A DNA stretch of 64,000 bases from Planctomyces sp. SH-PL62 (GTDB lineage: Bacteria; Planctomycetota; Planctomycetia; Isosphaerales; Isosphaeraceae). Every line of letters starts with the position of its first letter. Within the stretch, counting starts at the first letter, position 1. The stretch spans positions 5,828,001-5,892,000 of the forward strand of contig NZ_CP011273.1 of assembly GCF_001610895.1 (NCBI RefSeq), read 5' to 3'. Made by a program: the position numbers and the translations under genes. Positions 13,928 through 27,164 of the stretch are shown here, piece after piece. A model generated the notes under the pieces. It worked only from the letters and a program-made list of their open reading frames with translations, had not been told where the DNA came from and ran no database searches.

Positions 13928-15751
13928 TCAGCGGAAGGCGGGTCGCGGAGCCGCGACGGCCGCCCGGGAGGGGTGGGGATCGAGCCGGAGGAGGACCAGG
14001 CCGTTCCGTTTCGCCGTGGGCTCGCGCAGCAAGGGCGTCGAGACCCCCTCCAACTCCGGGCCGAGGTCCCGGTACACCTTCTCGCGAAGCAAGAGGTACT
14101 CGTCGGTCCGGGACTCGTGCGCGAGCCACTCCGCGAGGACCGTCCGGGACCGGGCGATCAGGCCGGACGCCGGGGGGGAGCCGTCGGCTTCCCGCCCCGT
14201 GATCTGGTCGTAGGCGTCATTATAACGGGGGCGGCTACCGGGGACGGCTTCAAGGCGGCGCCCTCGGAGGTAGAACCAGAGCCCTTCATCCAGCTCGTGA
14301 AAGAAGGCGACGGCGTCGACCTCGGCGGGCAAGGCCCGGTCGATCTTCCGCGCGATCTCGCGGTGCCCCCGCGCGGCGTTCGCCGAAGGAGCCACCACTC
14401 CATAGCCGACGACGACCGCGAGAGCCGTCGCCGCCAGCGCCGGCGCGACGGCCAGCGGCCCCCAGCCCCGACGCCCCGCCATCGCCCCGACCACCCCTGC
14501 GCCGACGACCGTCACGGCCATCAACGCGCACCAGCCGGGAGTCGCCGCGCCGAGCGCCCGACCGGAGAGAGCCAGGGCCGAGCCCCCCAGCACCGACCAA
14601 ATCCCCCATTGGAGAAAGACGAGGGCGCGGGCGGATCGAAGGCGGTCGCCCTGGAACGCCCTCCGGTCCAGGCGGAGCCAGGCCGTTCCCGCCAGCAGCG
14701 CGAAGCCCGGCAGGCACGGCATATAATAGTTGGGCTTCGCCACCGCCCAGAGGCCCAGGGAAAGCGCGACCCCGATCGACCAGCACCACGGCAGCCAGAT
14801 CCACGGGTCGCCGCCGTCCCGATCGCGGCGGAACGGCAGGATCGCCCCGGAGATCCCGGCCACCACCCAGGGGGCGATCAGGGCGGGCCACTGAGCCAGG
14901 AACCCGACCCGCTCGCGATGCACGATCGGCAACGCGCCGGTCTTCTGTCCCATCTCCGCGATCCAGACCCCGACCGCGTTCGGGTCGACCCACCAGACCG
15001 GCAACGGCCAGGAGAGCGCCAGCGTCAGGAACGCGAGGCCCCCCCAGGGATCGAACGCCAGCCTTGCGATCTCCCGGAACCGGCGAGCCAGCAGGCCGAA
15101 GGGGAGGAGCGTCGTCCCGACGATCGCCAGGATGATCGGCCCCTTGCAGAGGAACCCAAGCCCCATCGCGACGTGGAAGGTGGTCGCCCAGGGCCGAAAC
15201 GAGGGGAAGCGGCGTCGCGGCCAGCCTGAATTCCCGCCCTCGCCCTCAAGGGAGCGAAGCGCCGCATAGATGGCGAGCGTCGTGAAGAAGGCCAGCGGGA
15301 CGTCTTGCCCGGCCTGCCTCGCCTCGGAGATGAAAAGCGGGGTCGTGCCGAGGATCATCGCGGCGGCGAGCCCCAGCGACCTTCCGCCGAGCCGCACCCC
15401 CAGCAGATAGGTCAGGCCGATCGTCCCCAACGCCGCCAGCGCGCCCGGCAGGCGGACGACGACCTCGTCGCATCGGCCGAGGACCGTCGCCAGGGCGGCG
15501 GTCGTCCAGCGCGGCAAGGGGGGCTTTTCCAGCCGGGGCCGCCCCTGAATCTGGGCGATCAGCCAGCGGCCGTTCTCGATCGTGTCGACGACCTCGGCCG
15601 CCAGCCGCTGTTCGCGCTTGCCCCAAAGCTCGATCGAGCCCAGGCAGCCCAGGAAGATCGCGCCGACCAGGGCCGCGACGACCACCTCGACGAGCCATCC
15701 CCGAGTCGCCGTTTCTTCGACCGCCGCCGCTTCCGTGACGGAATCCGACAT
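13928..15751 (-). CDS. ArnT/PMT-like membrane glycosyltransferase (GT83-type)
   Basis: This 607-residue multi-spanning protein has the hallmarks of the ArnT/PMT_2 family, which transfers sugars from a polyprenyl-phosphate donor to lipid A or other envelope acceptors. The first periplasmic loop begins W-G-K-R-E-Q-R and continues with GRPRLEKPPLPRW; the latter is the typical YxKPPLxxW-like motif. At least ten hydrophobic helices follow, including LAAAMILGTTPLFI and FHVAMGLGFLCKGPIIL. The C-terminal third is a soluble periplasmic domain. The substrate is unknown. The gene stands alone on the minus strand. Confidence 0.88.
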   Translation of the reverse strand: MSDSVTEAAAVEETATRGWLVEVVVAALVGAIFLGCLGSIELWGKREQRLAAEVVDTIENGRWLIAQIQGRPRLEKPPLPRWTTAALATVLGRCDEVVVRLPGALAALGTIGLTYLLGVRLGGRSLGLAAAMILGTTPLFISEARQAGQDVPLAFFTTLAIYAALRSLEGEGGNSGWPRRRFPSFRPWATTFHVAMGLGFLCKGPIILAIVGTTLLPFGLLARRFREIARLAFDPWGGLAFLTLALSWPLPVWWVDPNAVGVWIAEMGQKTGALPIVHRERVGFLAQWPALIAPWVVAGISGAILPFRRDRDGGDPWIWLPWCWSIGVALSLGLWAVAKPNYYMPCLPGFALLAGTAWLRLDRRAFQGDRLRSARALVFLQWGIWSVLGGSALALSGRALGAATPGWCALMAVTVVGAGVVGAMAGRRGWGPLAVAPALAATALAVVVGYGVVAPSANAARGHREIARKIDRALPAEVDAVAFFHELDEGLWFYLRGRRLEAVPGSRPRYNDAYDQITGREADGSPPASGLIARSRTVLAEWLAHESRTDEYLLLREKVYRDLGPELEGVSTPLLREPTAKRNGLVLLRLDPHPSRAAVAAPRPAFR

Positions 15752-15899
15752 TCCCTCGCCCCCCTGCCCGGACGCCGACCTTGAAGGCGGCTCGATCCCG
15801 GCGGCAGGCTATCGGAAAGCGCCCGTTCGGGCAATCGGAGACGGCCCGCGGCGAGGCGTCTCCGGATCGACGAGCGAGGAAGGCGCGAGGGCGCGGTTC

Positions 15900-16463
15900 T
15901 CAGGGAGTGGTTTCGAGGACGAAGTAAAGGGTCAGGCTCGGCTGGGGTTCGGTTCGGGCGTACATCAAACCGAGGTAAAGCCCGGGCGCGATGCAGCGGA
16001 TCTCGTCGCGATTCTTCGCGTAGACGCGAGAGGTCTGCGCGTAGTCGAGGATCAGCGACGGGGTCCCGTCGAGCCAACTCTCCCCCTGGTAGAGCCGCCC
16101 CTTGATCGCGGGGAGGCCGAAGAAGCGGTTGACGGCGATCTCGCCCGACTCGTCGACCGTCTTCCCCTGCCAGATCAGCCGGGAGCCGACCGACATCGCC
16201 GCGTTGCGCCGGGCGCCCGGCGCGGGGAGGACCGTCCCCCGGATCCGACCCGTCGGAAGGCCGACCACCGTCCCCTGGCGGTAGAGCGACTGCAACTCGG
16301 CCTCGTTCATCCGGCGGAGCGCGGCGACGTCGAGGGGGCCGGCGGTCTCCTGCGCCCGCGCCTCGGCGCCCAGGCCGACGGCCGCGGCCGCGCCGGCGAC
16401 CGCGCCCAGCACCAGGCGGGCGATGGAGGAGAGCAAATCTCTGGTGAGTCGTTGCATGGGCAT
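15900..16463 (-). CDS. Secreted protein of unknown function
   Basis: The 187-residue protein has a hydrophobic export signal (SSIARLVLGAVAGAAAAVGLGAEARAQE, cleavage after ARA). A mature domain of about 150 residues follows, beginning LDVAALRRMNEAEL and ending in a beta-rich section. Starts at ATG 16463 and ATG 16457 are both possible, and the second gives MQRL. I do not recognise the family. Planctomycete genomes hold many such secreted, lipid- or surface-associated proteins. It is divergent from the acyltransferase operon across about 650 bases. Confidence 0.7.
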   Translation of the reverse strand: MPMQRLTRDLLSSIARLVLGAVAGAAAAVGLGAEARAQETAGPLDVAALRRMNEAELQSLYRQGTVVGLPTGRIRGTVLPAPGARRNAAMSVGSRLIWQGKTVDESGEIAVNRFFGLPAIKGRLYQGESWLDGTPSLILDYAQTSRVYAKNRDEIRCIAPGLYLGLMYARTEPQPSLTLYFVLETTP

Positions 16464-17112
16464 GGGGGAAGCTCGCGGAAGACCTGACGACGCGGCGGAA
16501 ACGCAGGCCGAACCTGCCTCGAACCGTCATCGGCGTCCCGAGTCCGACGGCTTGAACGGTCCTCCCGATCCCCGCCCACCGACCGCGAGGGCCGCGCCGT
16601 CTCGGACGAGGGGGGGAAATAGTCGGGCCGGTGAGCGGCGGGGAGACGCCTAGGCATCAGGGAGTGGGAGCAGTCGGGTTGACAGTCTCCCCCCCCCGCG
16701 GTTAAATCGCCCAACCGCATCGGTCTCCGGGCCCATGTCCCGGCGGCGGACCGACCGAATCACGCAAGGCCGATCGGATCTCAGGAACATTAAAGGATTC
16801 CAGTAGAGAATCTTCGGCGAGGATTCCGACCCGATTTCCAGGCGTACCAAGGATGGTGACCGTTGCGGGGAGCACCCGGCTCAAGGACGAGCTGGTCCCC
16901 GCAACCTTCCGGACGGCGTTCCGGGCGATTCCATCCTTCCCATCGCGCCTTCCGATCGGGACGACACGTCCTCGACCCGACGGAGCAAGTTGGCGTCGCG
17001 CGGTCCGATCCGCGCGGCCGATGGACCGGCAATTCAGGATGAACGGCCCCCGCCCGCCTTCGCAAACGGCGATCGCGGCCGGGAGCCCGCAGGTTCGAAG
17101 AAGGGATCGTCT
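16464..17112. other. divergent intergenic region upstream of the MBOAT operon
   Basis: No coding region can be supported across these 650 bases. They contain a convincing sigma-70-like promoter at 16679-16707 and a C-run at 16689-16697. The stretch 16780-16860 is less GC-rich than its surroundings. The promoter would give the MBOAT operon a 5' leader of about 400 bases, which leaves room for a cis-acting element that I cannot identify. Confidence 0.5.
16679..16707 (+). promoter_or_regulatory. candidate sigma-70-type promoter of the MBOAT operon
   Basis: A perfect TTGACA (16679-16684) is separated by exactly 17 bases from TTAAAT (16702-16707), which keeps four of six TATAAT positions. Such a match is rare in this GC-rich sequence. 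It faces the MBOAT gene that starts at 17113. Confidence 0.5.
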
Positions 17113-18525
17113 ATGGGGCCGAACGTCGGGAACCCGATCACGTCGCGAACCACGCCCCACCAGCGATACGTCGTGCCCGAGGGCGCCGGCGCGCCGCGGC
17201 CGTCGGGGTGGATCGAGACGCTCTACGCCGACGAGCCGGCGAACTGCCGTCGGGCCCTCGTCCCGTTCCTCCGCAACTTCCTGTTCTTCGGGCTGGTGTT
17301 CGCCGTCTGTCGGCTGTACCAGACCGAAGGGCGGGCCTTCCAGGTCCTGCTCCAGATCGCCGGGGTGGCGTTTCCGATCCACTACCTGGCCCCCTACCGC
17401 TGGAAGAAGGCCGTGTTCCTGGCGGCCTCGATCGCCGGGCTCTTCCTGGTCTTCGGGACGGACGTCGGGGCCGTGGTGACGGCGCTCTCGGCGGTGCTGA
17501 TCGGGATCAGCCGGCTGCCGATCTCGTGGAACCTCCGCGCCGGGATCCTCGCCGTGATCAGCGTGTTCCTGTCCTGCGGCCAGCCCGCGGCGCTGTTCGC
17601 GTACGCCCCGTCGACGGTCTGGCCGGTGGTCGGCTCGATGTTCATGTTCCGCATGCTCATCTACATGTATGAGCTGAAGCACGCGAAGAAGCCGGAGAAG
17701 CTGATCGACGCGGTGGGCTACTTCTTCCTGCTGCCGAACTACTGCTTCATGCTCTTCCCGGTGGTCGACTTCCGGACCTGGCAGCGCGGCTACTTCGCGT
17801 CCGACGTCCACGACGTCCAGCGCCGAGGCCTGGACATGACGTTCCGGGGCGTCGTGCAGCTCATCCTCTACCGGATCATCGATCAGGAGTTGCTGATTCC
17901 CGCGACCGACGTGAGCGGGCCGCTCAGCTTGCTGGGCTTCCTGGTGTTCAACTATCTGGTGTACCTGCAGGTCTCCGGGCAGTTCCACGTCGCCTGCGGC
18001 ATGCTCCACATGTTCGGCTACCAGCTCCCGGACACCCACCACCGCTACCTGCTGGCGACGGGCTTCACCGACTACTGGCGGCGGATCAACATCTACTGGA
18101 AGGACTTCATGGTCCGACTGGTGTTCAACCCGGTGGTCTTCCGCCTGAAGCACTGGCCGCAGCCGGCGGCGCTGGCGGCGGCGACGGCCGTGGTCTTCTT
18201 CGTGACCTGGCTGCTGCACGGCTACCAGTCGTTCTGGCTCCGGGGGACGTGGGGCTTCACCACGCCCGACGCCGTCTTCTGGACGGTCCTCGGCGGGCTG
18301 GTCATGGTGAACGTCCAGATCGACGCCCGCAAGAAGCCGGCCCGCGCCAAGCTTCGACCCAGGGCGGACGAGCCGCCGCCGGGCTTCGACTTCAAGGCCC
18401 TGGCGGTCCGCAGCGTCAAGATCGCCGCCACGTTCGCGACCATCACGCTCCTGTGGTCGCTCTGGAACAGCCCCAGCGTCTCGGCCTGGTTCGAACTGTT
18501 GGGCCGCGGCCTCCAGGCGTCGTGA
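17113..18525 (+). CDS. MBOAT-family membrane O-acyltransferase (DltB/AlgI-like)
   Basis: This 470-residue polytopic membrane protein belongs to the MBOAT class, which transfers acyl groups across or at the inner membrane. ATG 17113 follows AAGAAGGG; upstream in-frame ATGs at 16990 and 17038 lack support. The signature region is present: GFTDYWRRINIYWKDFM followed after about 40 residues by TWLLHGYQSFW, whose His is the expected catalytic residue. About ten hydrophobic helices precede and surround it. It is followed after 22 bases by an SGNH-type gene, the usual partner of MBOAT proteins in alginate acetylation and Dlt systems. Confidence 0.85.
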   Translation: MGPNVGNPITSRTTPHQRYVVPEGAGAPRPSGWIETLYADEPANCRRALVPFLRNFLFFGLVFAVCRLYQTEGRAFQVLLQIAGVAFPIHYLAPYRWKKAVFLAASIAGLFLVFGTDVGAVVTALSAVLIGISRLPISWNLRAGILAVISVFLSCGQPAALFAYAPSTVWPVVGSMFMFRMLIYMYELKHAKKPEKLIDAVGYFFLLPNYCFMLFPVVDFRTWQRGYFASDVHDVQRRGLDMTFRGVVQLILYRIIDQELLIPATDVSGPLSLLGFLVFNYLVYLQVSGQFHVACGMLHMFGYQLPDTHHRYLLATGFTDYWRRINIYWKDFMVRLVFNPVVFRLKHWPQPAALAAATAVVFFVTWLLHGYQSFWLRGTWGFTTPDAVFWTVLGGLVMVNVQIDARKKPARAKLRPRADEPPPGFDFKALAVRSVKIAATFATITLLWSLWNSPSVSAWFELLGRGLQAS

Positions 18526-18547
18526 TTAAGAGAGGACCCGATACGCC

Positions 18548-19780
18548 ATGGCGCTGATCCAGAACCCCACGCTCGCCGCGGCCCGAATCGCCATGCTGCA
18601 GGCGATGGCCCTCGTGGCGATCTACCTGATCCCGATCCCCGCGAGCTGGCCGCTGGCCCGCCGGGTGATGGCCTCGGCCAGCTCGAACTCGTCCAACCGG
18701 GCCGACGCCGACCACCACGCCACCGGCTACTACGAGGGCCTCGTCGGCGGCGCCGAGGGCCCCGGCGGCCGGGGCGAGCTGACCCTCAAGCTAATGGGCA
18801 AGCCCAACGGCTGGGTCCGCTTCAACGACGCCGGCGTCGTCCGCCACCTGGACCACGACTTCCTCCAGTTCGAGTTGATCCCCAAGATCGACAGCGTCCT
18901 CTTCGGCCAGCCGTTCGTCACCAACTCGCACGGCATGCACAGCCCCGAGGCGACCGTCGAGAAGCCCCCGGGCGTCTTCCGGATCGCCCTGCTCGGGGCG
19001 TCGATCGACATGGGCTGGGGGATCAAGTATCAGGACTCCTACGCCCACCGGCTCCAGGAGTGGCTCAACACCCACGCGGCGCACCAGGGCTTCGCCTCGG
19101 AGCGCAAGTTCGAGGTGCTGAACTTCGCGGTCGCGGCCTACAGCCCGCTCCAGCGCCTGGAGTCGTTCCGTCGCAAGGCCAGGGAGTTCCAGCCCGACCT
19201 GGTGATCTACTCGTCCACCATGCTCGACTCGCGGCTGGCCGAGATCCACCTCTGCGACGTCTTCCGGACCAAATCCGAGATCCCCTTCGACTTCGCCCGC
19301 GAGGCCGTCGCCCGCGCCGGCGTGACCGAGGACGACCGCCGGGTCGACTCCCGGGGCCAGCTCCCCGCCAAGGAGGCGATCAAGAAGAAGCTGGAGCCGC
19401 ATTACTGGGACCTGTACGACCAGACGGTCGCCAGCCTCTCGGCCGACTGCCGGTCCGCCGGGGTCCCCCTGATGATGGTGATCGTCCCACGCGTCGGGAA
19501 AGACGCCGACGCGTCGCTCCGCGCCGAGCCGTCGGCCCGGCTGAAGTCCATCGCCGGCCGCTACGCCCTGCCGATCTACGACCTCACCGACGCCTTCGAC
19601 GATCTCGACCCGGCGGACCTGGAAATCGCCGCCTGGGACGACCACCCCAACGCCCTGGGCCACCAGCGGCTGTTCATGGCCCTGACCCGCGAGCTGGTCA
19701 CCGACCAGGGCCGCTATGAGCTCCTCTACCCCGGCCGCAAGGCGGTGGCCGAGGCGTCGCTCCCCGCCGACCGGCCGTGA
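18548..19780 (+). CDS. SGNH/GDSL-type hydrolase or acyltransferase partner (AlgJ/DltD-like role)
   Basis: The 410-residue protein starts with one hydrophobic N-terminal helix (MLQAMALVAIYLIPIPASW) that would anchor it facing the periplasm. The SGNH core follows: block I RIALLGASIDMGWG with the nucleophile Ser, and block V DDHPNALGHQRL with the Asp and His of the catalytic pair. Between them lies VLNFAVAAYSPLQRLE. In MBOAT systems such proteins carry the acyl group to the final polysaccharide or lipid acceptor. It sits in the middle of a four-gene operon with MBOAT, adenylation and LPLAT genes. Confidence 0.88.
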   Translation: MALIQNPTLAAARIAMLQAMALVAIYLIPIPASWPLARRVMASASSNSSNRADADHHATGYYEGLVGGAEGPGGRGELTLKLMGKPNGWVRFNDAGVVRHLDHDFLQFELIPKIDSVLFGQPFVTNSHGMHSPEATVEKPPGVFRIALLGASIDMGWGIKYQDSYAHRLQEWLNTHAAHQGFASERKFEVLNFAVAAYSPLQRLESFRRKAREFQPDLVIYSSTMLDSRLAEIHLCDVFRTKSEIPFDFAREAVARAGVTEDDRRVDSRGQLPAKEAIKKKLEPHYWDLYDQTVASLSADCRSAGVPLMMVIVPRVGKDADASLRAEPSARLKSIAGRYALPIYDLTDAFDDLDPADLEIAAWDDHPNALGHQRLFMALTRELVTDQGRYELLYPGRKAVAEASLPADRP

Positions 19781-19840
19781 CGCCCGACCTCGCAGCGACC
19801 TGACCCACTTACGCGCAACCGAGCTGAACGGATCGACGCC

Positions 19841-21430
19841 ATGGAAGGACGCCATCTCAGCCGACTGCTGGAGGAAGCCGCCGCGAGGCGGCCCGGCCAC
19901 CCCGCCGTCGAGGACGAGCGGGGCCGCTCGCTGACCTTCGCCGAGCTGGACCGCGCCGCCGACCGCTTCGCGGCCCGACTGGCCCGCTGGGGGATCGACC
20001 GGGGAGACCGGGTCGGGCTCTGGCTCCCCAAGAGCCTGGAGGCCGTCGCCGCGATCCACGGCGTCCTCCGCGCCGGTGGCGTGTACGTCCCCGTCGACCC
20101 CACCGGCCCCGCCGGCCGCGCCGAGGGGATCTTCGCCGACAGCGGCGCCAAGGCCGTCGTCGTCGCCGCGAAGCTGGCCCCCGCCCTCCGCGCCGCCTGG
20201 GCCGACCGCGAGGCGGCCCCCCGGCTCGTCGTCGTCGAGGACGGCGAAACTCCCCCGATCGCCGAGCCCGGCTTCGAGGAGGCCACCTGGGCCGAGATCC
20301 AGGCCGACGACGCCCCCTCCCCCCTCCTGCCGCCGCGCGAGGCCGACGACCTGGCCTACATCCTGTTCACCTCCGGGTCGACCGGGAAGCCCAAGGGGGT
20401 CATGCTCTCGCATGCCAACGCGTTCACCTTCCTGGAATGGTGCCGCGACGCCCTCGGCCCCTGGAGCGACGACGACCGCTTCTCGTCGCACGCCCCCTTC
20501 CATTTCGACCTCTCGATCTTCGACCTGTACGTCTCCTGCCTGAACGCGGCGACCCTCGTCCTGATCGGCGAGACGCTCGCCAAGGAGCCGGCGCCCCTGG
20601 CCGACTTCATCCAGGAGCGTCGGATCAGCGTCTGGTACTCGGCCCCCTCGATCCTGGCGATGATGGCCGAACTGGGCCGCCTCGACCGCCCCGGCTACAC
20701 GCCGCCGCGACTGGTCCTCTTCGCCGGGGAGGTCTTCCCCATCGCCCCGCTCCGCAAGCTGCGGGCGCTCTGGCCCGCCGCCAGGATGTGGAACCTGTAC
20801 GGGCCGACCGAGACGAACGTCTGCACGGCGCTGGAGATCCCGGAGACCATCGACGACGCCCAGGCCGGGCCGTTCCCGATCGGCTTCGCCTGCCCTCCGC
20901 TGCTGGGTCGGGTGGTCGACGAGGAAGGCCGGACGCTCCCCGTGGGCTCGCTCGGCGAGCTGGTCATCGCCGGGCCGGGCGTGATGCGGGGCTACTTCGG
21001 CCTCCCCGAGCTGACCGAGGCCGCGTTCTTCGCCGACGACCGGGGGACCTCCTGGTATCGCACCGGCGACCTCGTCATCGACGACGGCGCCGGCTGCTAC
21101 CAGTTCCACGGCCGCCGCGACCGCATGGTCAAGAAGCGCGGCTACCGGATCGAGCTCGGCGAGATCGAGGCCGCCCTCTATCGCCACGAGGGGGTCGATC
21201 GCGCGGCGGTCGTCGCCGGCAGCGACGACGCGGGGGTCTCCATCTCGGCCTTCATCGCCCTCAAGGCCGGGGGCAAGAAGTCGCTGATCGCGATGAAGCG
21301 GCACTGCTCGATCCACCTGCCCAACTACATGATCCCGGACCGGATCACGTTCCTCGACAGCCTCCCGGCGACCTCGACGGACAAGGTCGATTATCAGAAG
21401 CTGAAGGCCCTGGCCTCCGAGGAGGGATGA
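19841..21430 (+). CDS. Stand-alone amino-acid adenylation domain (DltA-like AMP-forming ligase)
   Basis: The 529-residue enzyme has the complete set of adenylation motifs: A3 LFTSGSTGKPKGVMLSH, A4 FHFDLSIFDL, A5 NLYGPTETN, A7 YRTGDL, A8 GRRDRMVKKRGYRIELGEIE, and the A10 lysine in TSTDKVDY. The A4 region is close to that of DltA, which activates D-alanine and loads it on a carrier protein. No condensation or carrier domain is attached, and no carrier gene is found in the window. The product is therefore probably an aminoacyl adenylate or an aminoacyl carrier located elsewhere. The last codon overlaps the next ATG in ATGA. Confidence 0.9.
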   Translation: MEGRHLSRLLEEAAARRPGHPAVEDERGRSLTFAELDRAADRFAARLARWGIDRGDRVGLWLPKSLEAVAAIHGVLRAGGVYVPVDPTGPAGRAEGIFADSGAKAVVVAAKLAPALRAAWADREAAPRLVVVEDGETPPIAEPGFEEATWAEIQADDAPSPLLPPREADDLAYILFTSGSTGKPKGVMLSHANAFTFLEWCRDALGPWSDDDRFSSHAPFHFDLSIFDLYVSCLNAATLVLIGETLAKEPAPLADFIQERRISVWYSAPSILAMMAELGRLDRPGYTPPRLVLFAGEVFPIAPLRKLRALWPAARMWNLYGPTETNVCTALEIPETIDDAQAGPFPIGFACPPLLGRVVDEEGRTLPVGSLGELVIAGPGVMRGYFGLPELTEAAFFADDRGTSWYRTGDLVIDDGAGCYQFHGRRDRMVKKRGYRIELGEIEAALYRHEGVDRAAVVAGSDDAGVSISAFIALKAGGKKSLIAMKRHCSIHLPNYMIPDRITFLDSLPATSTDKVDYQKLKALASEEG

Positions 21431-22458
21431 GCCTCGTGAAGCACATCTCGCGTCGCATCTTCACCTGGAAGTTCTACTTCTACGAGCTGCTCCTGCCGAG
21501 CCTGGGCGCCCTCGCCCCGGCGCGGGCCGACGCGATCGTGCGCGCGATGGGAAGGGCCTCCACCATCTTCCGACCGGGCCGCCGCGCCCTCCTCAAGGCG
21601 GCGATGGCCCGCGCGGGCTCGCTCACCGGCCGCGAGGCCGACTGGACCGCGCTGGCCGAGAGCGCCGCGCGGTTCACCGCCCGCGACTACCCGCTCGACG
21701 GCGTAGACGACTCCGAGGCGCTGGCGCGGTTCGACGTCGTCGGCTTCGAGGCCGTGCGCGAGGCCCTGGACCAGAGCCGGGGCGCGATCCTCGTCGGCAG
21801 CCACTTCGGCGCCCATATCGCCGGGATGCACTGGCTGTTCCGCCGGGGGCTTCCGGTCCGGGCGTTGGTGCAGCGGCCCAAGCACGTCTCGCGCGTGCTG
21901 AACCGGCGGTTCGACGCCGACGACGTCCCGTATCCCCAGATCGAGTTCTTCCTCAAGCGCGACCTGACGACCGCCGCGGCCGTCGAGCGCATGATGCAGG
22001 CGCGGTCGGCCCTTCGCGACGGCATGGCGATCTACCTCAACGGCGACATCGTCTGGGAAGGCTCCAACACCCGGACCTGTCGGCTGCTCGGCCGCGACCA
22101 CGAGTTCCTCGCCGTCTGGGCCGAGCTGGCCTGCCTGACCCGCGCCCCGGTCTTCTTCGCCTTCTGCCGGCACCTCCGCGGGGGCCGGTTCGGCCTGGAG
22201 TTCAAGGCGCTCGACCTGGCGGAGAGGCACCCGGAACTCGCGCTCGCGGCCTATCTCGCCGAGGTCGAGGCCCAGGTGGCCGCCGACCCGTCCGAGGCCG
22301 TAGCCTACCTGACCTGGCCCTGCTACACCGACGCTCCGGAGGCCGCCGCGACGGCCTCGCCTCGCGTCGACGACGCCGAAGCCCGCCCCGGGCCGATCGG
22401 CGCCGCCTCATCGCGACGCGCCCCGATCGGGCGGGGCGGGGGCCCGGTCAAGGCTTGA
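21427..22458 (+). CDS. LpxL/HtrB-type lysophospholipid acyltransferase-family protein
   Basis: The ATG at 21427 overlaps the adenylation-gene stop, so the two are coupled. The 343-residue protein has an N-terminal hydrophobic helix and the LPLAT motif GAILVGSHFGAHIAGMHWLF with the catalytic His, as in the lipid A lauroyl/myristoyl acyltransferases. It has no thioesterase or carrier domain. In this operon it may place an acyl chain, or an aminoacyl group, on an envelope lipid. The last 50 residues are low-complexity Ala/Arg/Pro and may be dispensable. The 3' end overlaps the convergent SGNH-TPR gene by 11 bases. Confidence 0.88.
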   Translation: MSLVKHISRRIFTWKFYFYELLLPSLGALAPARADAIVRAMGRASTIFRPGRRALLKAAMARAGSLTGREADWTALAESAARFTARDYPLDGVDDSEALARFDVVGFEAVREALDQSRGAILVGSHFGAHIAGMHWLFRRGLPVRALVQRPKHVSRVLNRRFDADDVPYPQIEFFLKRDLTTAAAVERMMQARSALRDGMAIYLNGDIVWEGSNTRTCRLLGRDHEFLAVWAELACLTRAPVFFAFCRHLRGGRFGLEFKALDLAERHPELALAAYLAEVEAQVAADPSEAVAYLTWPCYTDAPEAAATASPRVDDAEARPGPIGAASSRRAPIGRGGGPVKA

Positions 22459-24163
22459 GCCGTTCCCGGACAGGTCGCGGGCCGACGCCCGGCAGGTCGA
22501 GCGACTCGACGTCCGCGCCCGCCTTCAGGGCGTCGAGCGCCGCCTTGTAGCGGTCGCGCTTCGCCAGCCGTTCCGCCTGGTCGAACCGCAGCGGGGCGAT
22601 CAGATGGTAGAAGCCGACCGCGTTGGCGCAGACCGCCTCCCACGTCGCGGGCCCGACGCCGAAGTGGGCCGCGACCTCCGCGAGATCGAGCGTCGGCGCC
22701 GGCGTGGCCTCGGGCCAGTCGAACGCCGATCGCTCCTTCAAACCCGCCAGGACCCCCTCCGCCAGCGCGACGTGCCCCTCCAGCGAGGGGTGGAATCCGT
22801 CGTTGAACAGGAAGTCGTCCAGCAGGCCGCGCGGGTGCCTGGCGCGAAAGACTTCCTGGGCGTCGATCAGGATCAGGCCCCGGCTCGCGGCGAGTTCCCG
22901 ATACACCTCCTGGAACGACGTGAGGCAGCGCAGGGGGTGGGCGTCGAGGTCCCTCGCCGCGACGTAAGACTTGTAGGCGTCTTCATACTTCCCGCCCCCT
23001 TCGAGCAGCCGGGCGAGGCGGAAATGCGTCTCGGCGAAGCCCGGTTGGCGTTCGAGCAGGGCGCGATAGGCGGTTTCGGCCCCGGCCGGGTCGGTCGCTT
23101 CGAGCTTCCGCGCGGCCTCGAACGAGCGGGCGAAGACCTCGCGACGGGCGCGAGGGACGTCGGGAGGCAGCACGGAGCGGTCGGGCTCGAAACCGGCGTC
23201 GTTGCCGGCGGGGGGGATCAGGACCGGAATCGCGCCGACGTCGCGACAGAAGTCGAGGATCGACTCCATCCGGCGGCGGAAGTCGTCGAGCAGCTCGGCG
23301 CGCTCGGCGACGGTGTGCGAGGGGGCGTCGATGAGCCGACGCCCCAGGCGCGGCGGGGGGGCGGCGACGCGCCGAAGCTCCAGCGTCTCCTCGATCAGCC
23401 GCACCATCGGCGAGACCCGGCCGAACGCCGCGCCGATCGACCACGGCCGCGACCAGCCCGGATCGTCCAGGTAGTACGGCGCGACCTCGTGCGACCACGC
23501 GTGGCGCGCGTAGAACTCGTTGTGGCCGCAGTAGATGATCAGCAGCTCCGGCTTTCGCGTCAGGCTCGTGAGTTTCCGGTGCATGTCCTCCAGCCGCTTG
23601 CCCGACTCGGCGAGGACATCGACCCGGACCCGACGCCCGGGCAGGGCGGCTTCGAGCCCCCAGCCGACGAGCCGTCCGACCGACAGCCACTTCTGGTACG
23701 GCACCCCCTCGGCGCTCGACTCGCCGATCACGACGACGTCCAGGTCCGTCGGCGATTCGGCGCCCGGCTCGAACGTCGTGGGGAGGCCGGGGACGGCGGC
23801 GAACGCCTTGGGGAGGTCCGGCGACCGATGGCTCCAGGCCAGCCAGGCCCCCGCCGCCGCCTCGGCCGCGATCAGGGCCAGGCACGTCGCCGCCAGCCCC
23901 AGCGCCGCCCGCGACAGGGCCGCGGGGACCGCCTCGCGACGCCTCCGCCTGCGAATCACGATCCAGACGAGCACCGCCGTCGCCGCCAGCACGCCGAGCG
24001 CCGCGGCGACGTAGACCCGTTGCAACGCCGCCAGGAACTCGATGGCCGTCGTCACCTCTCGCGCCCCAAGGTCCCCCTGGGCGAGCATCGCCACGCCCGC
24101 GATAGGACGGCCCGGATTGAAACGACGGCGGCCTGCTTCGCTCTCGACCATCTTCGGCCCCAT
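22448..24163 (-). CDS. Membrane-anchored SGNH-hydrolase-like protein with TPR-like repeats
   Basis: This 571-residue protein starts with two hydrophobic helices (VYVAAALGVLAATAVLVWIVI and ALGLAATCLALIAAEAAAGAWLAW). An SGNH-type domain follows: VVIGESSAEGVPY with the nucleophile Ser, LIIYCGHNEFYARH, and DGFHPSLEGH with the Asp/His pair. A TPR-like pair (AETAYRALLERQPGFAETHFRLARLLEGGGKYEDAYKSY) is inserted between blocks III and V. Starts at 24163, 24088 and 24055 are possible; the last (GTG) sits just before the first helix. It may act on the same envelope polymers as the operon it converges on. Confidence 0.8.
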   Translation of the reverse strand: MGPKMVESEAGRRRFNPGRPIAGVAMLAQGDLGAREVTTAIEFLAALQRVYVAAALGVLAATAVLVWIVIRRRRRREAVPAALSRAALGLAATCLALIAAEAAAGAWLAWSHRSPDLPKAFAAVPGLPTTFEPGAESPTDLDVVVIGESSAEGVPYQKWLSVGRLVGWGLEAALPGRRVRVDVLAESGKRLEDMHRKLTSLTRKPELLIIYCGHNEFYARHAWSHEVAPYYLDDPGWSRPWSIGAAFGRVSPMVRLIEETLELRRVAAPPPRLGRRLIDAPSHTVAERAELLDDFRRRMESILDFCRDVGAIPVLIPPAGNDAGFEPDRSVLPPDVPRARREVFARSFEAARKLEATDPAGAETAYRALLERQPGFAETHFRLARLLEGGGKYEDAYKSYVAARDLDAHPLRCLTSFQEVYRELAASRGLILIDAQEVFRARHPRGLLDDFLFNDGFHPSLEGHVALAEGVLAGLKERSAFDWPEATPAPTLDLAEVAAHFGVGPATWEAVCANAVGFYHLIAPLRFDQAERLAKRDRYKAALDALKAGADVESLDLPGVGPRPVRERLKP

Positions 24164-24296
24164 GTCCGACCCGTCCCGGCGCCGACCCCGATCGACGTCG
24201 CGTCCTTCATCGAAGGAATGCGATTTGCTGATATTGTCGCCCCGGAGTCAACGGTTGAAAACTTCGGATCTCGGGAATCCCGATGAGGCGGAAATC

Positions 24297-25421
24297 ATGA
24301 ACGCCAAGAACGTTCTGGGGGGCAAGATCCGTTACGGCGTCGTCGCGGGGGGGATGATCTCGCAGGCGCACTTCATGCCGGGCGTCCGCAACACCAAGAA
24401 TTCCGAGCTGACGGTGCTGGTCACCGGAGACCGGGAGAAGGCGAAGGCGCTCGGGGAGGAGTTCGGCCTCCTGAACACCTATCATTACGACGACTTCGAC
24501 AAGCTGCTGGCCGCCGACGAGGTCGACGCACTCTACGTCGCCACCCCCAACCACCTCCACACGAAGTACGTCGTCCCCGCGCTCCAGGCCGGAATCCACG
24601 TCCTGCTGGAGAAGCCGATGGCGGTCAGCGAGGAAGACTGCCAGGCGATGATCGACGCCGCCCGGGAAAGCGGGGCCAAGTTGATGATCGCCTATCGCCT
24701 CCACTTCGAGCCGGCCACCCTCGCGGCGCTCGAGCAGGTCCGCGCCGGCGACATCGGCGAGGCGCGGCTGTTCACCGCCAACTTCAGCCAGGCGCTGAAG
24801 CCCGACAACCATCGGGCCAAGCACGGCTTCGACACGGGACCGATCTACGACCTGGGCGTCTATCCCATCAACGCCGCCCGCCAGTTCTTCGACGCCGAGC
24901 CCATCGAGGTCCGCGCCGTCGGCGCCCGGAACCCCGATTGGGGCCTGGAGGACATGGACGACACCGTGAGCGTCGCCCTCCGCTTCCCCGGCGACCGCCT
25001 GGCCTCGTTCGTCGTGTCGTACACCCTGAACAGCTTCGAGCACTACGTCGTCTCGGGGACGAAGGGGAACCTGGCGTTCCGGCCCGCCTTCTCCTACGGC
25101 CACGGCCTGGAATACGACGCGATCCTCGGCGACGAGACGGAGCACCGGACCTTCCCCGAGGTCGACCAGTTCGGCAGCCAGGCGGAGTACTTCGCGAACT
25201 GCATCCTCGACGACCTGGACCCCGAGCCCGACGGCGAGGAAGGCTGGTGCGACGTCCGGATCGTCGAAGCGATCCGTCGCGCCCTGGAGACCGGCCGCCC
25301 CCAGGTGCTGGAACCGTACACCCGGAAGCACCGGATCGAACACACCCAGGTGATGGGGCTCGCCCCCCCCGAGCCGGTCGAGATGGTCAACGCCGAGGAC
25401 CCGAGCGAGAACCGCGACTGA
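24297..25421 (+). CDS. Gfo/Idh/MocA-family NAD(P)-dependent oxidoreductase
   Basis: The 374-residue enzyme has an N-terminal Rossmann fold (IRYGVVAGGMISQAHFMPG), the family motif EKPMAVS (about residue 105), a conserved YRLHFEP segment, and GPIYDLGVYPINAARQFF in the C-terminal domain. Members oxidise or reduce sugars, inositols or their derivatives, and it most resembles the glucose-fructose oxidoreductase-like branch. ATG 24297 is chosen because the upstream open frame lacks a start signal and the family begins here. No signal peptide or Tat motif is present, so it is cytoplasmic. The substrate is unknown. Confidence 0.92.
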   Translation: MNAKNVLGGKIRYGVVAGGMISQAHFMPGVRNTKNSELTVLVTGDREKAKALGEEFGLLNTYHYDDFDKLLAADEVDALYVATPNHLHTKYVVPALQAGIHVLLEKPMAVSEEDCQAMIDAARESGAKLMIAYRLHFEPATLAALEQVRAGDIGEARLFTANFSQALKPDNHRAKHGFDTGPIYDLGVYPINAARQFFDAEPIEVRAVGARNPDWGLEDMDDTVSVALRFPGDRLASFVVSYTLNSFEHYVVSGTKGNLAFRPAFSYGHGLEYDAILGDETEHRTFPEVDQFGSQAEYFANCILDDLDPEPDGEEGWCDVRIVEAIRRALETGRPQVLEPYTRKHRIEHTQVMGLAPPEPVEMVNAEDPSENRD

Positions 25422-25554
25422 CGGCCGAACGCCCGACCGGACGACCGACCCCGGTTGCCGGATCGGCCGATTCCTGGGACGATGGGGCAGGAAGCCGCTG
25501 GCCCGGCGGCTCCCCGTTTCCTTGCGAACCCCCGGCCGGCGTTCAGGACGATCC

Positions 25555-26715
25555 ATGTCGAGCTTCCCCCTGTTCCAGTCCTCGGACAACCCGTACGGCG
25601 TGGTCTTCGAATCGGTCGGGGGCCTGACCGAACGGATCAAGGAGACCCTGGAAGGGGAGTTCGGCGGGGTGGCGGTCCGTGGCGAGATCTCGAACCTCTC
25701 GCGGCCGCGTTCCGGTCATCTCTACTTCAGCCTGAAAGACCAGGCGGCCGGGATCCGCGCGGTCATGTGGCGGAGCGACGCCCAGCGGCTGCCGTTCGAC
25801 CTGTCCGACGGCCTGGCCGTCCGGCTCGTCGGCCGGCTGACCGTCTACAGCCCGCGCGGGGAGTACCAGATCATCGCCCAGGCCATCGAGCCCGAGGGGA
25901 TGGGCGCGCAGGAGCTGGCGTTCCGGCAACTCTTCGCCCGGCTCTCGGCCGAAGGGCTGTTCGACCCGGATCGGAAGCGGCCCCTGCCGCGGTTCCCCCG
26001 CCGAATCGCCGTGGTCACCAGCCCCACCGGCGCGGCGGTGCGCGACCTGCTCCAGGTCACCGGCCGTCGCTGGGAAGGGACCGACGTGCTGATCGTCCCC
26101 ACGAGGGTCCAGGGCCTGGGGGTCGGCCGCGAGATCGCCGCCGCCCTGGAGTTGGCCGGGCTCGCGCCTGGCGTCGAGGTCGTGATCGTCGCCCGAGGGG
26201 GCGGCAGTGCCGAGGATCTGAGCCCGTTCAACGACGAACGGGTCGTGCGGGCCATCGTCGACTGCCCCGTGCCGGTCGTCGCCGCTGTGGGCCATGAGAT
26301 CGACGTGACCCTTGCCGACCTGGCCGCCGACCGCCGCGCCCTGACCCCCAGCGAAGCCGGCGAGCTGGTCGTCCCCGACGGGGCCGAGATCGCCATGCAC
26401 CTGGACCGTCTCGCCCAGGCCCTTCGCCACGCCGGTTCCGGCCGCCTCCGCGACGCCCGCGCCGGGCTCGACCACCTGGCGCGAGGCCTGACCGCCGCCT
26501 TGGGACAGGACCTGGAACGTCGGCGACATCGGCTCGATCGGCTCAAGACCTCGCTCGACGCCCTCAACCCCGAAGCGGTCCTCGCCCGGGGATATAGCCT
26601 GACCCTCGCCCAGGACGGCCGGACCGTCGTCCGCGACCCCTCCCAGGCCCCCGCCGGCACCCTCATCCAGACCGTCCTCGCCGGCGGTCGGATCACCTCC
26701 CGCGTCGAATCCTGA
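25555..26715 (+). CDS. xseA: Exodeoxyribonuclease VII large subunit
   Basis: The 386-residue protein is the catalytic subunit of exonuclease VII, which degrades single-stranded DNA with the small subunit XseB. An N-terminal OB-like DNA-binding domain (residues about 15-110, GEISNLSRPRSGHLYFSLKD) is followed by the catalytic core, with RIAVVTSPTGAAVRDLLQV, ARGGGSAEDLSPFNDE and AVGHEIDVTLADLAADRRA. The C-terminal coiled coil ends in LARGYSLTLAQDGR. It is slightly shorter than the E. coli protein but complete. Its partner gene is not adjacent: xseB begins about 8 kb downstream, after two giant surface-protein genes. Confidence 0.95.
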   Translation: MSSFPLFQSSDNPYGVVFESVGGLTERIKETLEGEFGGVAVRGEISNLSRPRSGHLYFSLKDQAAGIRAVMWRSDAQRLPFDLSDGLAVRLVGRLTVYSPRGEYQIIAQAIEPEGMGAQELAFRQLFARLSAEGLFDPDRKRPLPRFPRRIAVVTSPTGAAVRDLLQVTGRRWEGTDVLIVPTRVQGLGVGREIAAALELAGLAPGVEVVIVARGGGSAEDLSPFNDERVVRAIVDCPVPVVAAVGHEIDVTLADLAADRRALTPSEAGELVVPDGAEIAMHLDRLAQALRHAGSGRLRDARAGLDHLARGLTAALGQDLERRRHRLDRLKTSLDALNPEAVLARGYSLTLAQDGRTVVRDPSQAPAGTLIQTVLAGGRITSRVES

Positions 26716-27164
26716 CGCATCACGGCCCTCCCCCTCACCTACATCTCTCACGCCCGCACGCACTGACTCAACGCGCCACGAAACGGGATTCGACCGATTT
26801 CGTGCGGAATGGATCTCCGTGAGAAAAGCCGCCGAAAACTCGCCTGATCAGGCCGTTTAAGTCCTCTCGTCCTTCCCAGAGTTTCCATGATTCAAGATTA
26901 CGGGCCTTTGCCCTGGACGATGGGATAAAATAGGTCCGTTGCGCAAATTTCAACCTTGCGTGGCAAATTTCAAAATAGGTAATCTGGACGGCGCACCTCG
27001 TGTTGCCTGCGTGCAGGATTCGATCCGAGCCGCCAACCGGGCGTCCCGCCAGCCGCGCATCGAGTCGGGGATCGGATCCTGCCGTGACGACTGTCGCGTC
27101 AGGGCCGCGTCTCTAGGCGTCCTCGACCCTCTCCAACTGATCGACTTCCTCGGAGCCCTCAGTC
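26716..27164. other. intergenic region with AT-richer, repeat-like DNA
   Basis: These 450 bases contain no supported gene. From about 26780 to 27000 the sequence is noticeably less GC-rich than its surroundings. The direct repeat GCAAATTTCAA occurs at 26943-26953 and again near 26963. Read on the minus strand, 26860-26950 resembles a dispersed bacterial repeat whose chance translation gives PSSRAKARNLES. It lies between xseA and the first giant surface-protein gene and may mark an insertion boundary. Confidence 0.35.

Follow-up and report, generated by a model that had tools for sequence, protein, structure and literature searches.

The four-gene operon at positions 17113-22458 of the window (the whole stretch of 64,000 nucleotides of Planctomyces sp. 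SH-PL62 that was analyzed) probably encodes one half, for activation and transfer, of an MBOAT/SGNH acylation system that is split between loci and has a cargo derived from L-proline. Gene content, family membership, the proline code of the adenylating enzyme, the families of a carrier protein and of a dehydrogenase, and their co-occurrence were computed; from these we infer the catalytic steps, the oxidation level of the cargo, the acceptor, the final ester, and the direction of transfer. The adenylating enzyme (19841-21430) would activate proline and load it onto a dedicated phosphopantetheine carrier (C1:4740776-4741018), and a dehydrogenase (C1:3327058-3328197) would oxidize the carrier-bound prolyl group to pyrrole-2-carboxyl, or at least to dehydroprolyl. 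Next, the MBOAT would remove the acyl group from its thioester bond with the carrier and transfer it outward. The SGNH protein would receive the group and attach it as an ester to a hydroxyl group of a glycan or glycolipid, either in the envelope or exported.

The four genes were co-directional on the + strand and encoded an MBOAT-fold acyltransferase (17113-18525, 470 aa), an SGNH acyltransferase (18548-19780, 410 aa), a stand-alone amino-acid adenylating enzyme (19841-21430, 529 aa; predicted to be an L-proline:carrier ligase), and an LpxL-like LPLAT (21427-22458, 343 aa). Intergenic gaps were 22 and 60 bases, and the genes of the adenylating enzyme and the LPLAT overlapped by 4 bases. The tight operon of the original prediction was borne out at these positions, and its gene order (MBOAT, one or two SGNH genes, ligase, LPLAT) recurred in 20 Isosphaeraceae-type loci with enough flanking sequence. 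Two SGNH genes were found in most other Isosphaeraceae loci and one in the Paludisphaera loci. The MBOAT was present in 44 of the 45 genomes of the order. The MBOAT of the window was 87% identical to that of Paludisphaera soli, which places the genome in Paludisphaera or near it. Second MBOAT-SGNH copies with no adjoining ligase or LPLAT were observed in Singulisphaera and relatives (L039, L040, L055, and L060). Isosphaeraceae-type clusters were also present on two MAG contigs labelled Candidatus Kuenenia stuttgartiensis (L064 and L068), which are likely mislabelled or misbinned. A convergent gene for a TPR/GDSL protein (22448-24163 of the window, - strand) overlaps the stop of the LPLAT gene and lies outside the conserved operon. 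A reading as a defense system was dropped, because PADLOC gave no match.

The adenylating enzyme was assigned to PF00501/PF13193 and matched TIGR01733 at 366 bits (cut-off, 317); its score with the DltA model TIGR01734 was 282 bits, below the cut-off of 560. The ten specificity residues, read from alignments with positions mapped by motif and not by structure superposition, were DLFYLALVCK. The nine aligned positions of PltF read DLLYLALVC, and at the single site where PltF and the window ligase differ, PigI has F, as does the window ligase. The window code was found in 22 Isosphaeraceae loci, and the exact PltF residues were found in 15 loci of other phyla. When the 140-residue pocket stretch was compared with the PDB, only five sequences matched at E ≤ 1e-15: 6o6e (123 bits) and 7thn (91 bits), which we take to be PltF and PigI, both L-proline ligases, followed by DltA proteins at about 62 bits. 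The best single-domain PDB match of the ligase was PltF (350 bits; DltA, 231 bits). Linear gramicidin synthase was dropped as the nearest ligase because its 410 bits add up two domains, and the exosortase-associated ligase TIGR03098 was dropped because the score was below the cut-off (261 vs. 592 bits). The original prediction had the ligase mirroring DltA, but comparison of the adenylation code did not sustain this: the pocket residues follow PltF and PigI, not DltA, so D-alanine specificity was rejected and the predicted cargo is derived from proline. Sequence and co-occurrence together give strong support to the predicted activation of proline and the pairing of the ligase with a carrier. 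The open-access literature searched contained nothing on the specificity string or on PltF with a carrier.

In other phyla, a carrier of ~90 aa with the motif FLPGEDP...GGILDSI adjoins the MBOAT, which there is usually fused to an SGNH domain. A profile built from 17 members of this carrier family detected it, always in trans, in each of the 45 Isosphaeraceae genomes, with a single high-scoring copy per genome (one fragmented assembly had a second, partial high-scoring copy). The carrier of the SH-PL62 genome (C1:4740776-4741018, equal to L139:7771-8019; 83 aa, 129 bits) is located about 1.1 Mb from the operon, contains the invariant LDS motif with the phosphopantetheine serine, and matches PF00550 above the cut-off. 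The absence of a carrier, as first claimed, thus holds for the operon only: the genome has a dedicated carrier in trans, as do all 45 of the Isosphaeraceae genomes searched, and other phyla have it in cis. True absence was dropped, since the profile found a carrier in every Isosphaeraceae genome, and the puzzle of a carrier-less operon is resolved by a system split over the genome.

Among 196 Planctomycetota genomes, the MBOAT was found in seven and carriers of >100 bits were found in six, all of them MBOAT-positive (Fisher's exact test, P = 1e-10, shared ancestry ignored). One MBOAT-positive genome had no carrier of >100 bits, and all other carrier matches were <72 bits. Beyond the Isosphaeraceae, the genomes with both MBOAT and carrier belonged to two other families.

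The only NCBIfam match of the carrier at E ≤ 1e-20 was NF052616, "ornithine lipid biosynthesis ACP" (166.7 bits; cut-off, 130); DltC was not matched. Together with olsH (NF052613, 976 bits), which adjoins the carrier gene in the SH-PL62 genome, and with the olsH/olsI-type genes of many relatives, this match favors an explanation in which the carrier in trans belongs to ornithine-lipid synthesis, while the ligase of the operon works with a different carrier or with no carrier. We consider this quite improbable. OlsH and OlsI were discovered in Singulisphaera acidiphila; OlsH is reported there to need no ACP, and none was studied (PMC12493201). OlsH-like proteins (E ≤ 1e-100) were found in twelve of the 196 Planctomycetota genomes, of which only SH-PL62 also had a strong carrier, whereas the five other genomes with a strong carrier had the MBOAT and lacked OlsH; outside the Isosphaeraceae, strong carriers therefore occurred with the MBOAT and never with OlsH. 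Several Isosphaeraceae carrier loci had no olsH neighbor, and the carriers that adjoin the ligase in cis in other phyla belong to the same family as the carrier in trans. The NF052616 name therefore probably reflects the neighborhood, and the carrier probably belongs to the MBOAT/proline-ligase system instead, although it could conceivably be shared between the two. OlsH is a GH3-like protein of a recently described planctomycete ornithine-lipid pathway, and its gene was near the carrier gene here and in many Isosphaeraceae; olsI (NF052614) was recognized in relatives at carrier loci of this type (OlsH/OlsI loci, L139:5641-7740, L143:10791-12368, and L143:13019-13966). Directly upstream of the carrier gene, most Isosphaeraceae had a PF01663 phosphodiesterase gene (L139:8086-9666 in SH-PL62).

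Loci with a homologous MBOAT were collected from other phyla (Beta- and Gammaproteobacteria, Acidobacteria, Gemmatimonadetes, Hydrogenedentota, and others), and of these 39 loci, 24 contained the carrier, 25 the ligase, and 22 an acyl-CoA-dehydrogenase-like gene. The best PDB matches of the latter were AnaB, a prolyl-ACP dehydrogenase (4irn, 329 bits), 6cxt (290 bits), and the L-prolyl-carrier dehydrogenase 5zw0 (279 bits), with other ACADs at ≤246 bits; 6cxt is Bmp3 (PMC10849742). The same dehydrogenase was found in 41 of the 45 Isosphaeraceae genomes, with one strong profile match in each. In SH-PL62 it is encoded at a third site (C1:3327058-3328197), unlinked from the operon; it retained the W-E-R motif with the catalytic Glu and scored 392 bits with AnaB, 333 with Bmp3, and 294 with PigA-type enzymes, compared with ≤284 bits for ACADs of other function. 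It was below the NCBIfam equivalog cut-offs of PigA (410 vs. 500) and RedW (387 vs. 650). The distance between the dehydrogenase and carrier genes was no more than about 4 kb in five genomes (G007, G008, G026, G043, and G044) and no more than about 13 kb in another four (G011, G027, G037, and G038). In the standard cassette, a proline ligase, a carrier, and an FAD dehydrogenase yield the pyrrole by a four-electron oxidation (PMC10849742). Dehydrogenation of carrier-bound proline is well supported. The gene set of the original prediction is extended by this prolyl-carrier dehydrogenase, which Dlt systems lack. AnaB stops at the dehydroprolyl stage and is the closest match, so the oxidation level of the cargo is given here as pyrrolyl or dehydroprolyl.

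The same system might instead transfer the unoxidized prolyl group, forming an amino-acyl ester nearer to that of D-alanylation, with the dehydrogenase serving otherwise in planctomycetes. Being positively charged, a prolyl ester would affect charge in the way that D-alanylation does. Besides being unlinked in SH-PL62, the dehydrogenase gene was missing from four of the 45 Isosphaeraceae genomes, including one that is 92% complete, and from another MBOAT-positive planctomycete (G209). Transfer of plain prolyl is accordingly possible in those genomes. As a general explanation it is unlikely, given the frequency of the dehydrogenase both in the family and at the loci of other phyla, its location in nine genomes on the contig of the carrier, no farther than about 13 kb from it, and its closest similarity to dehydrogenases that act on prolyl carriers (AnaB, Bmp3, and PigA).

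With Pfam and NCBIfam, the MBOAT gave no convincing match, so its family membership rests on the fold. The AlphaFold model (pLDDT 86) had DltB (8jem and 6bug) as its top Foldseek matches, followed by HHAT (Hedgehog acyltransferase) and PORCN (Porcupine), and the best 22 PDB matches were MBOAT-superfamily proteins throughout. Two residues were invariant in the alignment of homologs: N326 in WRRINIYWKDFM and H369 in TWLLHGYQ. The protein is predicted to be the membrane transferase that takes the acyl group off the carrier thioester. Its SGNH partner, with an N-terminal membrane helix, matched PF13472 just under the cut-off, and no DltD family was matched in Pfam or NCBIfam. The predicted model had the SGNH fold, with CgnD and TesA as top matches; S152, D364, and H366 (Ser-Asp-His) were invariant, and the SGNH portions of the MBOAT-SGNH fusion proteins of other phyla are homologs of this protein. 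The Dlt-like logic first proposed, in which an adenylating enzyme, an MBOAT, and an SGNH protein probably acylate the envelope, is supported.

In the MBOAT-SGNH systems studied, the acyl group is relayed by the tyrosine of an FXYXXF motif located at the C-terminus of DltX or of the MBOAT (PMC12148441). This motif was not found in the MBOAT of the operon, the C-terminus of which reads LWSLW...W, and no frame in positions 14000-27000 of the window ended in it; a DltX-like microprotein was not found. Just past the membrane helix of the SGNH protein, Y61-Y62 form a Tyr-Tyr pair that was invariant in all aligned homologs, separate or fused. That this pair acts as the acyl relay is speculation on our part, and the SGNH model is poorly resolved there.

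The LPLAT matched PF03279 (38 bits; cut-off, 22) and had been proposed to replace the carrier. This role was dropped: the LPLAT is an extra, Isosphaeraceae-type gene that lies outside the set conserved at the loci of other phyla. Its HX4D/E motif was altered, with HFGAHI in the window and I, V, or L at the acid position in 22 of 22 aligned sequences; the corresponding residues in a mycobacterial phosphatidylinositol mannoside acyltransferase are HSGNWD. Since the acid is replaced, the enzyme may have changed or lost its activity. In Isosphaeraceae its substrate is probably the acceptor lipid or one related to it, and this is the least certain role of the system.

Outside the Isosphaeraceae, the set was also found in compact form. 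The megaplasmid pMVF16-2 of the alphaproteobacterium Microvirga sp. VF16 (L183:5179-11442) encoded the complete four-protein system, with an MBOAT-SGNH fusion gene divergent from the genes of the other three proteins (carrier, 117.9 bits; ligase, 515.6 bits; and dehydrogenase, 574.3 bits). In four planctomycetes of other families (G104, G134, G149, and G176), the MBOAT, carrier, and dehydrogenase genes were within about 6 kb of one another. Some loci of other phyla were near genes for glycosyltransferases, a pyruvyl transferase, a UDP-GlcNAc epimerase, or a bacterial sugar transferase; glycan genes were a minority of the neighbors, with glycosyltransferase families matched by only about 6 of 83 flanking ORFs. 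The Isosphaeraceae carrier locus often included a polysaccharide-export gene (Poly_export) and the PF01663 phosphodiesterase gene. The likeliest acceptor is an envelope or exported glycan, and a glycolipid is possible.

Chemistry of the PltF/PltE type occurs in the synthesis of antibiotics and toxins (PMC10849742), and a small lipid might be assembled by the LPLAT. The operon might instead produce a small molecule for secretion, either a pyrrole-type natural product or a glycolipid, with the MBOAT and SGNH proteins as off-loading enzymes and no polymer being decorated. This is very improbable: studied MBOAT-SGNH pairs acylate envelope polymers (PMC12148441), an MBOAT in 44 of 45 genomes of a bacterial family would be unusual for a secondary metabolite, and glycan-synthesis genes were among the neighbors in other phyla. 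Within the preferred reading of a surface acylation system, a broader proposal is more tentative and somewhat doubtful: that a widespread, unrecognized system transfers pyrrole-2-carboxylate or dehydroproline, made from carrier-bound proline, onto envelope or exported glycans, with the SGNH Tyr-Tyr pair as relay instead of FXYXXF.

Four known kinds of system were most similar. Like the Dlt system (DltA-B-C-D-X, teichoic acid D-alanylation), the proposed system has an adenylating enzyme, a carrier thioester, an MBOAT with a DltB-like fold, and an SGNH partner. Unlike Dlt, its ligase has a proline-type code and scores below the DltA cut-off, its carrier is in trans and of another family, a DltD Pfam match, DltX, and FXYXXF are lacking, and a prolyl-carrier dehydrogenase is added. 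Because several defining features of Dlt were tested and not found, it is not a Dlt system. With the proline-to-pyrrole cassettes (PltF/PltL/PltE, RedM/RedO/RedW, PigI/PigG/PigA, Bmp1/Bmp3, and AnaC/AnaD/AnaB) it shares the proline ligase, the dedicated carrier, and the FAD dehydrogenase with the W-E-R Glu, but here a membrane MBOAT/SGNH pair takes the place of NRPS/PKS or halogenase enzymes, and the genes are conserved family-wide and split over three loci in SH-PL62. PatA/PatB and other MBOAT-SGNH O-acyltransferases have the same pair, with the invariant MBOAT His and the SGNH Ser-Asp-His; in contrast to these, the predicted donor is a carrier-bound amino-acid derivative and not acetyl-CoA, and the C-terminal hexapeptide Tyr motif is lacking. 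In clorobiocin and coumermycin synthesis, a carrier-made pyrrole-2-carboxyl group is put on an antibiotic sugar hydroxyl by a soluble acyltransferase (CloN/CouN), whereas transfer here is predicted to occur across the membrane onto an envelope acceptor.

The gene combination had been put forward as undescribed, and the open-access literature searched contained no description of it, nor of a proline-to-pyrrole cassette that feeds an MBOAT-SGNH pair. To our knowledge, antibiotic-type pyrrole chemistry joined to surface acylation has not been described. If correct, the proposed system would provide a function for the carrier that currently bears an ornithine-lipid ACP annotation, and it would reveal a family of MBOAT-SGNH proteins that lack the usual acyl-tyrosine motif. 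A surface pyrrole ester would be predicted that could be sought by mass spectrometry in Singulisphaera acidiphila, in which gene deletion works (PMC12493201). The chemistry of antibiotics and toxins (prodigiosin, pyoluteorin, and anatoxin) would then also modify bacterial surfaces, in the Isosphaeraceae and in scattered lineages of several other phyla.
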